Positions 8,720 through 35,191 of a stretch of DNA of 64,000 nt are shown in pieces. A program made the translations under genes and the position numbers. Each line of letters begins with the position of its first letter. Within the stretch, counting starts at the first letter, position 1. The stretch is from Halichondria panicea (lineage: Eukaryota; Porifera; Demospongiae; Suberitida; Halichondriidae): the NCBI RefSeq assembly GCF_963675165.1, contig NC_087391.1:5302126-5366125 (forward strand), in the 5' to 3' direction. Under the pieces are notes generated by a model. The model was given only the letters and a program-made list of their open reading frames with translations, was not told the DNA's origin and made no database searches.

Positions 8720-9162
8720 CTGTGAAGGAGAGTAAACCGCTGGACATCACATTCTCTGCTGGGGTGGAGCTACTGGAGGAGGACGAGAAAGAGGTATCTA
8801 ATACAGTATGTGATACACTGCACCTCCTCCCCAAGCTATAATACAAGTCATGAATTTTAACTATATATTATGTGATTTAATGCAGTTTTTATATTATTAC
8901 CCTCACAAGATTTCACCTCTTACATTCACCCCCCCCCCCCCCCCCACACACACACACACACACACACACACAGCTGTGCTCCTCCACTCGTATCCAGCCA
9001 ATGCCATACCTTCAGTACAAGAAGACCGTGTTGGCGGAGTATGAGAAGCACTCGAGACTAACTCTAGCAGAGTGTAGGAAGCTGCTCAAGATTGACGTGA
9101 ACAAAACTAGAAAGATATTCAATCTCTTTGTCAGTAGAGGTTGGATTGTACACATCAGCTAG
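8720..9162 (+). CDS. TADA2A: Transcriptional adaptor ADA2 (TADA2A-like), last two exons with the SWIRM domain
   Basis: Two exons join in phase: 8720-8793 (ending DEKE|GTATCT) and 8974-9162. The joined end reads LCSSTRIQPMPYLQYKKT..LTLAECRKLLKIDVNKTRKIFNLF..RGWI and a stop. This matches the C-terminal SWIRM domain of TADA2A, a subunit of SAGA/ATAC histone acetyltransferase complexes, including the hallmark KIDVNKTRKI. The acceptor of the last exon is a poly-C plus (CA)n tract. No upstream exons (ZZ finger, SANT) are visible. They may lie outside the window beyond a long intron, or this may be an orphaned fragment. The reading frame is intact, unlike the duplicate at 23005. Confidence 0.75.
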
Positions 9163-32600: not shown

Positions 32601-35191
32601 CACACACACACACACACACACACACACACACACACACGTACCCACCCCCTCTACACACACACACACACACGTACCCACCCCCTCCACACACACACACACA
32701 CACACGTACCCACCCCCTCTACACACAAACAGGACAAGAAATCAATCTCTGTTTCTGGAACAAGACGTCATCAGCTTGTCACTAAGAGACCAGCCTCAAC
32801 CAATCACAGTTCAGGATAGATCTACCATCACCAAGACCACCAGTCAACTGCTGACAGACTCACTTGCCCACCTCCCCACCATCAGAACCACCTACCAGCT
32901 GGCATTGAGGGAGAGCGGTGTCTGCTCTCGTGCAAAGATACTCCGCTCTGAGTAAGTTTATCAATCAGCCGAAATCCTTGAAGTGGTATCATGAATATAA
33001 TTATAACATTCCGGGCGCTTACCACAAAATGTTGTAAACGTACTTGTGTATAAAAGGGGGCAGCTGATGCTATAGAGTCAGCTTTGCGCAGTGGCAGTAC
33101 CATAACCAATGAGGTTTTACCGAGGTGTGGTTATTGCTAGTTGAAAACTTATCCCAATATCCCGCAATGACGACGTGAAATACCGTCGGCATTTGCAATT
33201 TTTGGAGACCACTACGGTGGTCGAATCACACAAACAATAATTTAATGATTAGTGCTGCGAAGAAGGCTAGCTGCTTGATTGTGCTCTGCCCTGTCTTGTC
33301 ACATTGGTTTAGGGCACTCTTTCAGTTGCCATAACTTGAATTCTGTGGACCCAAATTCAACAATTTTCTGATTTTCTGAGAGCTTACAATGAGATGTTTC
33401 AAATGGTATCACATCAATATTCATTTTTAACAGATTACAAAATTTGCCAATTTCAGCCAAATACCATGGATTATATATAGCCCATGGTCCAAGGCCGAAA
33501 AATGACAAATTACGACTCCAACCAAATTTTGGATTGAAATATATCATTTGAAAGGTCTCTTTCTAAGCTTTCAGAAAATCATAAAATTGGTGAAATTGGA
33601 TCAGCGATACTAAAGTTATGGCTGTTGAAAGATGTTTTCGGCACATTGTAGTGTGTCTTTACATGTTTCATTTCTCAGGGCTATATTTAACGGACATCCC
33701 TTCCAAACACCTTCAAAGCTCCTCCCACCTTGCCACGCCCCCATCATGCCAGAGGACTGGATCATGCTACCCATTATGCTTGAGTATAGCAAAACAACAA
33801 CTGAAACTCAAAAAAAGTTTGTGATTCTGTTGAATTTGAAATAATGTCTTTTTTTTATTATTAGAGTTTCAGACGCAACTGATAGTTTGGAGAGAGTTGT
33901 ATCCATGGTAACATGCTCCCTCCAATTGCTCTTGTTATTGGAACACCTTCATCCGCACTTGTTGAGGAAACTGCCGACGTCGGCAAAGATCGCCCGACTC
34001 ATGTGCATCTTTCTAATTGGTAAGCATGCATATAGAAACTGCCAGTGTGTGTGCTGTGCATAAAATTAAATTATCTTCTTATTTTGACAGATAGTGAGCT
34101 GTTTCTGGAGAGGGTGGTTCATGATCTGCTGGCTTCTCTGCTGAGCCTCTACTGTAGAGGTGGTAGCCAGCTGGACTTCACAACTCCTATCCCCGGGCTG
34201 ACATCTTTTGTGGACCTGTAAGTGGGTTTAGTACATGTGTATGACAATAATTATCCTTATGGTACTCGCTTAATGTTTTTCTCGTTGAGGGCTTTTATAG
34301 TTCTCAGAATTTAATTTTCTCCTTTAGATACACTACTTTGTTGGAGCAGTTCTCGGCTGTATCCTATGGCGACCACCTGTTCTCCTGTTTCCTGCTCCTG
34401 CCTCTACAGCAGCTGTTCTCCTCTCACCTGAAGAAGCTGGTGTGGGGGGAGAACCCTACAATCATTAGAGTCTTCTCCCTACCACTTACTGAGGTGAGGG
34501 ATTCTTTCCTCATACATATTTTTAGTTCTTTAATTTCCACACCCACCACTTAATAATTTGTTCATTTGGCTCTACAGGTGCCAGTACCTTTGGACAGTTT
34601 TCTCGTTCCTATAGAGACTGACATGCAACTGATTGATATGTACATGTCTGCATTATCAGCGGAGACAGTCAGGTATGCATGTACATAACCACACCCCCTA
34701 GTTACCTGTGTCCATACAGGCGTGTGTGGAGTCCATTGTTTTACCTGGTGGCGGTCCATCACGTGCACAGCTGTATCTTCAGTGATGGCTCCCCTGAGGG
34801 GCAGAGGAGGCAACTGTTGCAGAGAGTGGTCAACCTGTCTAATCAGGTGAGCTAGAGGGGATCCCTGTCTGTCTAGCATAGCACATGTAATGACGTGTAC
34901 TTCTCCTATACCCTAGATGTGTGTTGCGTTACCTTTGCCTTTACTGTAATATTTTTGGATGCCTGCTTTAATTTGCTTGTATAATTTACATGTTGTAAGT
35001 AATTTGTCTTTTGAGTATATGCACATTGATCCACGTACTGCCCCACCTCTCAGGAGACAAAGAGATGTGTGCTACTGTATGTTGGTGTGGACACGAGCTC
35101 ACCAGCTGGTGTGAAACTAAGAGAACAGTTGGACGAGAGACAATTAACAATTATTAAATCATTGCTAGGGACAACCATTAATGTGCTGTAA
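23632..35191 (+). CDS. RPAP1: RNA polymerase II-associated protein 1, complete 27-exon gene
   Basis: Exons, phases consistent: 23632-23836, 23952-24050, 24110-24150, 24210-24490, 24559-24728, 24781-25112, 25210-25506, 25562-25687, 28160-28294, 28367-28528, 29438-29595, 30299-30462, 30555-30649, 31111-31176, 31310-31476 (weakest; donor CA|GTGTAG), 31571-31817, 31957-32028, 32095-32163, 32215-32360, 32733-32951, 33679-33816, 33865-34019, 34091-34217, 34328-34493, 34578-34672, 34720-34846, 35054-35191. Total about 1398 residues (human about 1393). Diagnostic blocks: KIHEENVQRL, DPNLLSFLKS, HMDVVERDKMEW, PAHLGLHHHGDE, ARLMCIFLIDSELFLE, PGLTSFVDLYTTLLEQFSAV and SYGDHLFSCFLLLPLQQLF. RPAP1 helps assemble and import RNA polymerase II. 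Intron 8 hosts an antisense gene and intron 20 a U4 snRNA. The AKR gene starts 116 bp downstream. Confidence 0.97.
26095..27357 (-). CDS. Ankyrin-repeat / death-fold protein with signal peptide, copy 2 (nested in RPAP1 intron 8)
   Basis: A single-exon 420-codon gene on the strand opposite to RPAP1, wholly inside intron 8 (25688-28159). A signal peptide or anchor (HQVIVVVLLFVWTTES) is followed by ankyrin-type repeats (GDIPLHSAIKGM, VPLDLAFELGNFEAVEVLLE, TTLLHKAFKRGHLEYFQIVL, GNTPWYYLINR, TTMLHEAVRRND). A C-terminal death-like domain has GNWEALCVHLGIRSGFIDEL.., LRCAEAYFDNG and PTWEEVILAV. The paralogue at 13657-14910 has the same architecture and most of the same residues, and both frames are intact, which suggests selection. 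The family is not one I can name; a secreted or membrane-tethered death-fold receptor or regulator is inference. Confidence 0.85.
   Translation of the reverse strand: MKSHLHQVIVVVLLFVWTTESKIFCTTGVEELFNENCSQVLLSRWLEHNWVNITSSDLQDVFRGCILEQRDSLFGGTILNQLARSYDVFPIPLIVKILNYLKDEGYAVYLSIMDNDGDIPLHSAIKGMANQSYIKIFADIFPKYTDQCLKAMNNKGNVPLDLAFELGNFEAVEVLLELSVQHRVLEHLTGVDTLSSTTLLHKAFKRGHLEYFQIVLTVCMKLNISILPVLLVPDSQGNTPWYYLINRHKYHEIEQVMYLCNKYGIDVNKLYSDPQKKTTMLHEAVRRNDRQCEKILRKWGVTDQPDNKGLWPQQRNHRFSSNGLAENKDSHPITRIKDLYIMLEDVGNWEALCVHLGIRSGFIDELRHSRLEVSVQKLRCAEAYFDNGNPTWEEVILAVTLYPIHKLDIVRKITQEHLQN
27746..27949. mobile_element. MITE with CCTTAAGG termini, copy 1 (RPAP1 intron 8)
   Basis: Left end CCTTAAGGTGACATTATTTT; right end GAAAATATGTCACCTTAAGG; TA on both flanks. 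The interior has no coding capacity. Confidence 0.8.
28773..29321. mobile_element. 549-bp TIR element with 9-bp target duplication (RPAP1 intron 10)
   Basis: Ends TAGCCTCGATCCCAGGCC and ..GAGGCTA, flanked by the exact 9-bp duplication CAATCATTG (28764-28772 and 29322-29330). Same termini and duplication length as 2551-3313 and 39265-39324. No transposase. Confidence 0.85.
29770..30250. repeat. Inverted-repeat unit in RPAP1 intron 11
   Basis: ACCATCCGTGTATCTCC (29798-29814) is repeated inverted at 30174-30190, and ATTGGAAACGAAAG (29770) inverted at about 30060-30072. Likely another nonautonomous element; limits uncertain. Confidence 0.5.
30693..30889. mobile_element. MITE with CCTTAAGG termini, copy 2 (RPAP1 intron 13)
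   Basis: Left CCTTAAGGTTGGTATTATTG; right ATTAATAATACCGACCTTAAGG (end region); TA flanks. Same termini as 27746-27949 but a different interior. Confidence 0.8.
31183..31262. repeat. (CA)n microsatellite after RPAP1 exon 14 donor
   Basis: A CA run begins 6 bp after the exon 14 splice junction (CCCAAT|GTAAGC). Confidence 0.95.
32390..32732. repeat. Minisatellite, unit about CGTACCCACCCCCTCTACAC(AC)n, filling RPAP1 intron 19
   Basis: About ten units of 24-50 bp with variable (CA)n. The array runs directly into the exon 20 acceptor ACAAACAG|GACAAG. The positional homologue at 22490-22850 has a different unit. Confidence 0.93.
33080..33223 (+). ncRNA. U4: U4 spliceosomal snRNA
   Basis: The sequence follows canonical U4 from AGCTTTGCGCAGTGGCAGTA through the 5' stem-loop with its kink-turn (CCAATGAGG..ACCGAGG), the U6-pairing segment, GAAAACTTATCCCAATAT, CCCGCAATGACGAC, the central hairpin (CGTCGGCATTTGC), the Sm site AATTTTTGG and the 3' hairpin GACCAC-TACG-GTGGTC. 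Length is about 144 nt, normal for U4. Base differences from the vertebrate form in the 5' stem appear paired. It lies in RPAP1 intron 20 in the sense orientation. I cannot identify a promoter element, so it could be independent or host-dependent. U4 chaperones U6 in the tri-snRNP. Confidence 0.96.
33319..33631. mobile_element. Long palindromic MITE, copy 1 (RPAP1 intron 20)
   Basis: Left end CTTTCAGTTGCCATAACT; right end AGTTATGGCTGTTGAAAG. The imperfect inversion continues inward for about 100 bp (TTTTCTGAGAGCTTA vs TAAGCTTTCAGAAAA). The centre has ATACCATGGATTATA. A full second copy is at 48533-48837; shorter fragments are near 30905 and 43105. Confidence 0.8.

Follow-up and report, generated by a model that had tools for sequence, protein, structure and literature searches.

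The gene order ADA2, WASH, and RPAP1, with an antisense ankyrin/death gene nested in an intron of RPAP1, occurs twice side by side in a 64,000-nucleotide stretch of the genome of the demosponge Halichondria panicea (the window; C15:5302126-5366125 in an assembly of 131 Mb and 39 contigs). The two blocks in the window are referred to as copy 1 and copy 2, and a third RPAP1 block elsewhere on C15 as block 3. The nested gene is the one protein gene that is intact in every block, with three open ankyrin/death genes against one WASH, one complete RPAP1, and one intact ADA2 end. With moderate confidence, this is explained here by partial duplications that were kept for the nested gene, or tolerated because of it, while the passengers were pruned to one copy. 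A preliminary description of the same DNA, in which the nested gene stood outside the interpretation, took the locus as a snapshot of divergent resolution of duplicates.

The side-by-side duplication of this small genome segment is real. Both self-BLAST of the window, the self-comparison suggested in the preliminary description, and targeted alignment gave a chain of matches between 8.7-22.8 kb and 23.0-32.7 kb in identical order and orientation, by which the claim that the same gene order occurs twice was borne out. Copy 1 spans 8.6-22.8 kb and holds the 3′ end of ADA2, an intact WASH, and fragments of RPAP1. The sequence shared by copy 2 spans 22.9-32.7 kb and holds a broken ADA2 end, a WASH remnant, and the complete RPAP1 (Table 1). 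RPAP1 exons 7-8 precede the antisense ankyrin/death open reading frame (ORF) in both copies, and exons 9-19 of the two copies pair over 15196-22473 and 28131-32360. A DNA search of the genome with the copy-2 sequence located block 3 at C15:3.908-3.916 Mb, about 1.4 Mb away. It contains an open ankyrin/death ORF and a U4 small nuclear RNA (snRNA) gene along with pieces of RPAP1 exons 6-9, 14, and 16-20, the ORF lying in the same intron as in copies 1 and 2; no ADA2 or WASH exon match of at least 50 bits was obtained in 50 kb around it.

Genome searches for gene families scored the best candidates only, and all match counts given here are lower bounds. For the ankyrin/death gene, 98 of 342 candidates were scored and 61 matches were found, of which three are full-length close relatives (the query itself at 100 % and two others at 71 and 65 % identity); the remaining 58 are at most 47 % identical. 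All three close relatives sit in intron 8 of RPAP1, with open frames of 427, 423, and 474 codons. By the method of Nei and Gojobori, their proportion of nonsynonymous differences (pN) is 0.17-0.24 against a proportion of synonymous differences (pS) of 0.68-0.80, which points to constraint at the protein level. A weak Pfam match to Death (E=0.27) was seen in one of the three proteins, and the C-terminal part had no match among Protein Data Bank (PDB) sequences at E-values up to 10. The best model of this part has six helices and a predicted local distance difference test (pLDDT) score of 78.7, the five models ranging from 42.8 to 78.7 with three of them below 50. In a Foldseek search with it, the first seven rows were death domains with template modeling (TM) scores of up to 0.72, the best E-value being 0.079 and none below 0.001. 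The C-terminus is therefore modeled as a six-helix death fold. A model of the full-length protein was poor (mean pLDDT 53) and was left unused. By eye, the hydrophobic N-terminus resembles a signal peptide; that the protein acts in immunity or recognition is a guess. Beside ankyrin/death gene 1, a dispersed repeat lies at 13100-13500, where 37 of 41 genome matches fall (40 of 213 candidates scored). Elsewhere, contig C12 carries many ankyrin-repeat matches at about 1.04-2.05 Mb, located within open frames of great length, several having 1,000-4,500 codons.

The neighbors of the nested gene have each been reduced to a single working copy. WASH in copy 1 is predicted to encode WASH subunit 1 on the basis of its WAHD domain (PF11945, residues 4-291) and its acidic, Trp-containing C-terminal end, which was read directly from the translation. 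An acidic C-terminal end is typical of WASH. Both matches to PF11945 in the genome are exons of this gene, the sole WASH locus found. In both copies an intergenic block with CCCCACCCC and CCACGTGG is present, with 62 of 72 bases identical; it adjoins WASH in copy 1 and RPAP1 in copy 2 and is promoter-like, that is, a putative promoter. Its presence in both copies gives good support to the earlier proposal that the two genes, now about 11 kb apart, once stood head to head; their ATG codons are 11.45 kb apart on one contig.

The product of the complete RPAP1 gene in copy 2 carries the domains RPAP1_N, RPAP1_C, and TPR_RPAP1 in order, and its introns are all of the GT-AG type apart from one GC-AG intron. 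The starting exon model was made with a gene finder of our own, trained on 11 frames of which three contained stops (20, 11, and 10), and the final exons were set by hand, their borders being shifted to frame-preserving consensus sites; with borders chosen earlier, 12 stops remained. The frame is partly open by construction, and the independent check on it is the order of the Pfam domains. All four genome matches to TPR_RPAP1 fall in copy 2, as do two of the three to RPAP1_C, the third of which, with a stop, is in block 3. What is left of RPAP1 in copy 1 was found to consist of two partial copies in tandem, 1A followed by 1B, a feature absent from the preliminary description. Alignment of copy 1 gave no match to RPAP1 exons 20-27 or to exons 1-6, and part of exon 7 is gone as well.

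ADA2 at this locus is predicted to be a transcriptional adaptor of the TADA2 type, with a SWIRM domain and a TADA2A-like third domain, and is distinct from adenosine deaminase 2. The 5′ exons lie about 2-4.7 kb to the left of the window. The exon pieces there, with provisional joins, matched TADA2A-like_3rd (PF22941, E=1.2e-9), and Myb reached only 19.7 bits, under its cut-off of 24.4. Three SWIRM matches were found in the genome, one in copy 1 and one at each of two loci outside C15, which leaves copy 1 as the sole ADA2 end on C15; of 12 matches to the ZZ domain, none is on this contig. The ADA2 end of copy 2 has a frameshift ahead of the stop. These results are in keeping with what had been stated beforehand, namely that copy 1 has an intact ADA2 3′ end (SWIRM E=3.1e-10), an intact WASH (466-amino acid ORF), and a broken RPAP1 (the frameshifted fragments 1A and 1B), and that copy 2 has a frameshifted ADA2 end, a scrap of WASH exon 1 (about 55 bp), and a complete RPAP1 (1377-amino acid ORF). 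Within the large ADA2 intron, a second tandem duplication is seen at 4134-5496 and 6718-8187, parts of which are 85 and 75.5 % identical; the minus-strand open frame in each of its copies had no Pfam match.

The two copies meet at a junction at about 22.84-22.90 kb, where RPAP1 intron 19 is joined to an ADA2 intron. Both this join and the one between 1A and 1B, in intron 14, lie at CA-rich simple repeats. Because the loss of the RPAP1 3′ part from copy 1 and that of the ADA2 5′ exons from copy 2 meet at one junction, they are probably the result of a single event. Separate deletions took WASH from copy 2 and the RPAP1 5′ exons from copy 1. It had been proposed that each neighbor pair was resolved by loss in opposite copies. 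The complementary loss was confirmed, since WASH survives in copy 1 alone and a complete RPAP1 in copy 2 alone; the independence of the losses was not, as those of ADA2 and RPAP1 share a junction.

Table 1 Features of the duplicated segment and of block 3 (positions in the window unless a contig is given)
Feature	Position	Strand	Evidence
Last two exons of ADA2 with flanking intron, copy 1; predicted SWIRM	8618..9164; exons ~8720-8793, 8974-9161	+	SWIRM PF04433 E=3.1e-10; alignment to copy 2
Intact WASH (predicted), 4 exons, 466 amino acids	9954..12182	-	Spliced ORF; PF11945 E=1.3e-80
WASH-RPAP1 intergenic remnant, copy 1, including CCACGTGG	12339..12411		62/72 bases identical to copy 2
RPAP1 fragment 1A (exons 7, 8, 9, 10, 12, 13, 14 in pieces), with frameshifts and deletions	12386..19320	+	Alignment
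Single-exon ankyrin/death gene 1 with hydrophobic N-terminus, in the equivalent of RPAP1 intron 8	13660..14940	-	427-codon open frame; Ank_2 E=1.5e-12; death-fold C-terminal model
RPAP1 fragment 1B, exon 9 (part) to exon 19, with degenerate exon 15 and frameshifts in exons 10, 11, 19	19331..22473	+	Alignment
CA-rich minisatellite of RPAP1 intron 19 and junction to the copy-2 ADA2 intron	22474..22896		Alignments of both edges
Decayed ADA2 3′ fragment, copy 2, frameshifted	22897..23424; exons ~23005-23078, 23244 onward	+	Alignment; SWIRM 22.9 bits (cut-off 28.6)
WASH exon-1 remnant, copy 2, ~55 bp	23455..23510	-	47/52 aligned bases identical to copy-1 12049-12100, four 1-bp gaps
WASH-RPAP1 intergenic block, copy 2, beside RPAP1	23531..23613		Alignment
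Complete RPAP1, copy 2, 27 exons, 1377 amino acids	23632..35191	+	Spliced ORF; PF25766 E=4.1e-71, PF08620 E=1.9e-24, PF08621 E=1.6e-13
Ankyrin/death gene 2, antisense in RPAP1 intron 8	26098..27366	-	Open frame; Ank_2 E=5.6e-13
U4 spliceosomal RNA gene in RPAP1 intron 20	33080..33220	+	Rfam RF00015, 128.8 bits
U4 of block 3, position equivalent to copy-2 U4	C15:3915682-3915822		128.9 bits

Silent divergence of the nested genes differs strongly from that of the exons around them. At fourfold sites of RPAP1, differences were counted at 27 of 230 (1B and copy 2), 8 of 70 (1B and block 3), and 21 of 135 (block 3 and copy 2), and the corresponding divergence of 0.117, 0.114, and 0.156 places the three copies about equally far apart. 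Fragment 1A differs from copy 2 at 12 of 82 such sites, from 1B at 11 of 51, and from block 3 at 1 of 16. The ankyrin/death genes differ at 67 of 102 (genes 1 and 2), 66 of 113 (1 and 3), and 58 of 119 (2 and 3), giving 0.66, 0.58, and 0.49, and Fisher tests of the contrast with RPAP1 gave 7.5e-23, 8e-11, and 1.5e-8, respectively. RPAP1 pS was 0.16-0.19, against the range given above for the nested genes. Silent distances near saturation are imprecise, the bootstrap ratios being at least 7.2 (1-2), 4.6-26 (1-3), and 2.7-8.3 (2-3). Since the nested genes are silently so much more divergent than the RPAP1 exons that surround them, they are either older than the blocks that carry them or evolving much faster.

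The RPAP1 values were taken from local alignments passing a score, a procedure that might favor similar exons and was therefore checked. A laxer alignment barely shifted them (14/87 for 1A, 28/237 for 1B, and 23/140 for block 3), and in a control by the same procedure, pieces of ankyrin/death gene 2 still differed at 0.61 and 0.47. Divergence was homogeneous from exon to exon, with p values of 0.83 (1B), 0.13 (block 3), and 0.23 (1A, calculated without exon 8, which has too few sites). The pN of block 3, which as a dead copy provides a neutral estimate, is 0.091, and this value and the three clearest introns of the block (80, 83, and 89 % identical) agree with the RPAP1 silent value. Alignable RPAP1 introns are in general 76-96 % identical; intron 8 around the nested gene is largely unalignable between the copies.

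The ratio of nonsynonymous to synonymous divergence differs among the fragments of RPAP1. Fragment 1B and copy 2 show 19 nonsynonymous and 48 synonymous differences (pN/pS 0.14), against pN/pS values of 0.27 for 1A and 0.49 for block 3. Under neutral evolution of 1B over its whole course, our own estimate from pS puts the expected number of nonsynonymous differences at about 73, instead of the 19 seen (Poisson tail 5.5e-14). The low ratio argues that the RPAP1 sequence now in 1B, whether it was a second gene or an allele, was functional during the greater part of the time since its separation. As 1B was mostly constrained, a functional sequence was there to be lost, which favors the view of a lost functional duplicate taken in the preliminary description. 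That the copy-1 RPAP1 was dead at birth because the duplication stopped in intron 19 was dismissed as a complete explanation in view of the difference between 1B and the dead block 3.

The following course of events would account for the locus. The ancestral order would have been ADA2 followed by WASH and RPAP1 head to head, with the antisense ankyrin/death gene in RPAP1 intron 8 and U4 in intron 20. Partial duplications would have given rise to the tandem array of 1A, 1B, and the complete copy 2 and to the dispersed block 3, and the positions of the two joins suggest that exchange took place at the CA-rich repeats of introns 14 and 19. The housekeeping genes ended with one working copy each, a state for which the following order and selective cause are proposed. 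Deletion would have removed WASH from copy 2 and, in copy 1, exons 1-6 of RPAP1, and a single junction would have truncated both the RPAP1 of copy 1 and the ADA2 of copy 2. The splitting of the WASH-RPAP1 pair would be a by-product, each gene having retained a copy of the intervening sequence. As the ankyrin/death gene is open and constrained in all three blocks, it would be the likeliest reason why the extra blocks persist.

Several points weigh against this account. The three nested genes may simply have become separately useful, with no part in preserving the blocks. One simple duplication date cannot explain a block in which silent divergence is 0.11-0.16 in RPAP1 and 0.49-0.66 in the nested gene. 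Truncation at birth is at odds with the low pN/pS of 1B, so that either the truncation came late or the divergence is allelic. Finally, introns 13, 15, and 16 show little or no similarity, which is explained here only by turnover through insertions and deletions. Confidence in the explanations does not sum to one, as the first three of the alternatives discussed below deal with the discrepant ages and can in part coexist with pruning.

Young-looking flanks around old-looking nested genes, a contrast that held in the same-procedure control, would also result from a heterogeneous duplication, a concept set out in PMC6121789. The ankyrin/death gene in RPAP1 intron 8 would then have been polymorphic for a long time under balancing selection, and unequal exchange between haplotypes would have brought differing old alleles together on one chromosome. 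The homogeneous divergence of the RPAP1 exons is what a single date predicts, and 1B diverged mainly under constraint, as an allele would. Silent divergence of about 12 % in RPAP1 is, however, very high for alleles in our judgement, and at least three old lineages would have to be captured in separate events; this explanation is held only tentatively. An extended form of it is speculative and rather unlikely. In this form, RPAP1 intron 8 would have harbored divergent alleles of a recognition- or immune-type gene, balanced over a very long time, and at least three of these old lineages would have become fixed on a single chromosome by repeated unequal exchange, which brought in pieces of the surrounding housekeeping genes and later shed them.

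Alternatively, the duplication itself could be old, with later gene conversion having homogenized the RPAP1 and ADA2 exons and spared the nested gene. Tracts of high identity do stop abruptly near several splice sites, several introns are unalignable, and 1B, copy 2, and block 3 are about equally far apart in RPAP1. This would nevertheless take some ten exon-sized conversions per copy, all of similar age given the homogeneous silent divergence of the exons, and 1B and copy 2 share 89-96 % identity in introns 12, 17, and 18 and in part of intron 11; the explanation is regarded as doubtful. Conversion through an mRNA intermediate was rejected, as the identity of these two copies is 96 % in intron 12 and 94 % in intron 17, both of which are short. 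An unusually high local mutation rate at the nested genes, with one age for each block, would fit the similar lack of alignment in the surrounding intron 8. Such a rate would have to be roughly 4- to 12-fold elevated, and introns 13, 15, and 16, far from the nested gene, are unalignable too, which makes the feature unspecific; this explanation is regarded as improbable. That two divergent haplotypes were joined end to end in the assembly is the least probable of all, although the junction falls within a simple repeat and the segment in common resembles an overlap, since one haplotype without RPAP1 and another without WASH and the ADA2 end would amount to a balanced-lethal state, and since the decayed block 3 and the two tandem fragments of copy 1 show such copies to be a real class here.

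The U4 gene was considered as a general reason for the retention of the blocks and rejected, as an Rfam scan of the window gave one U4, in copy 2 only. The genome search gave three U4 matches, all on C15 and two of them inside RPAP1 blocks. At the third (C15:3825358), no RPAP1 exon match was found in the 3.1-kb locus or the adjoining 3 kb. These adjoining 3 kb contain a dispersed element in common with 18.8-18.9 kb of the window and a weak match (68 %) to 27.46-27.60 kb, in RPAP1 intron 8. An imperfectly palindromic element of about 320 bp, probably a non-autonomous mobile element, occurs at 33316-33634 and 48530-48840 (83 % identity between the sites) and in dozens of copies in the genome. 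Direct repeats of about 0.75-1.5 kb, 89-96 % identical, lie at 270-4062. On the minus strand, 36001-36996 is an open frame of 332 codons, of which a 194-amino acid part matches the AIG1/GIMAP GTPases with E=1.1e-5 and 25.3 bits, just missing the cut-off of 27.

A known case of divergent resolution, as outlined in PMC5896889, is pTAC14 in Mimulus, where two species differ in the place at which the working copy is retained. The sponge locus resembles it in that function was lost in alternate copies of duplicate genes. It differs from that two-species case in that all losses lie about 11 kb apart in one assembly. The complementary loss of duplicates is what the locus has in common with divergent resolution, and both outcomes lie in cis here. 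Since all losses are found within one assembly, the claim of divergent resolution between lineages, and with it that of hybrid incompatibility, goes beyond what the locus shows, which is a rearranged gene family that does not so far testify to a barrier between species. The ace-1 duplications of Anopheles gambiae, in which co-amplified genes were deleted according to the account in PMC6099818, are similar in that a multi-gene duplication kept one gene in the extra copies and lost co-duplicated neighbors. In that account, the deletion is recent and segregating, with evidence of selection, whereas the present locus is known from one assembly, and the gene retained here lies inside an intron of the pruned gene. 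With heterogeneous duplication as treated in PMC6121789, the locus shares the presence of divergent forms side by side on one chromosome; here, the allelic origin is only putative and the silent divergence is near saturation. The idea that duplication can fix heterozygosity is credited to Haldane in the same source. A limited literature search on the RPAP1-WASH pair, decay of a host around nested genes, balancing selection with tandem duplication, and exon conversion yielded nothing on this locus.

In conclusion, an apparent divergent resolution can arise in cis through partial duplications and a few deletions, with no species-isolating role shown. The locus offers a testable case of an intron-nested gene that outlasts its host in duplicates, with an apparent age of the nested genes several times that of the surrounding host exons. 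If old alleles were confirmed by population data, it would be a natural example of duplication fixing heterozygosity in the sense described in PMC6121789. If the reading based on balanced alleles were true, an intron-nested gene would be the driver of both the duplication and the decay of its host.

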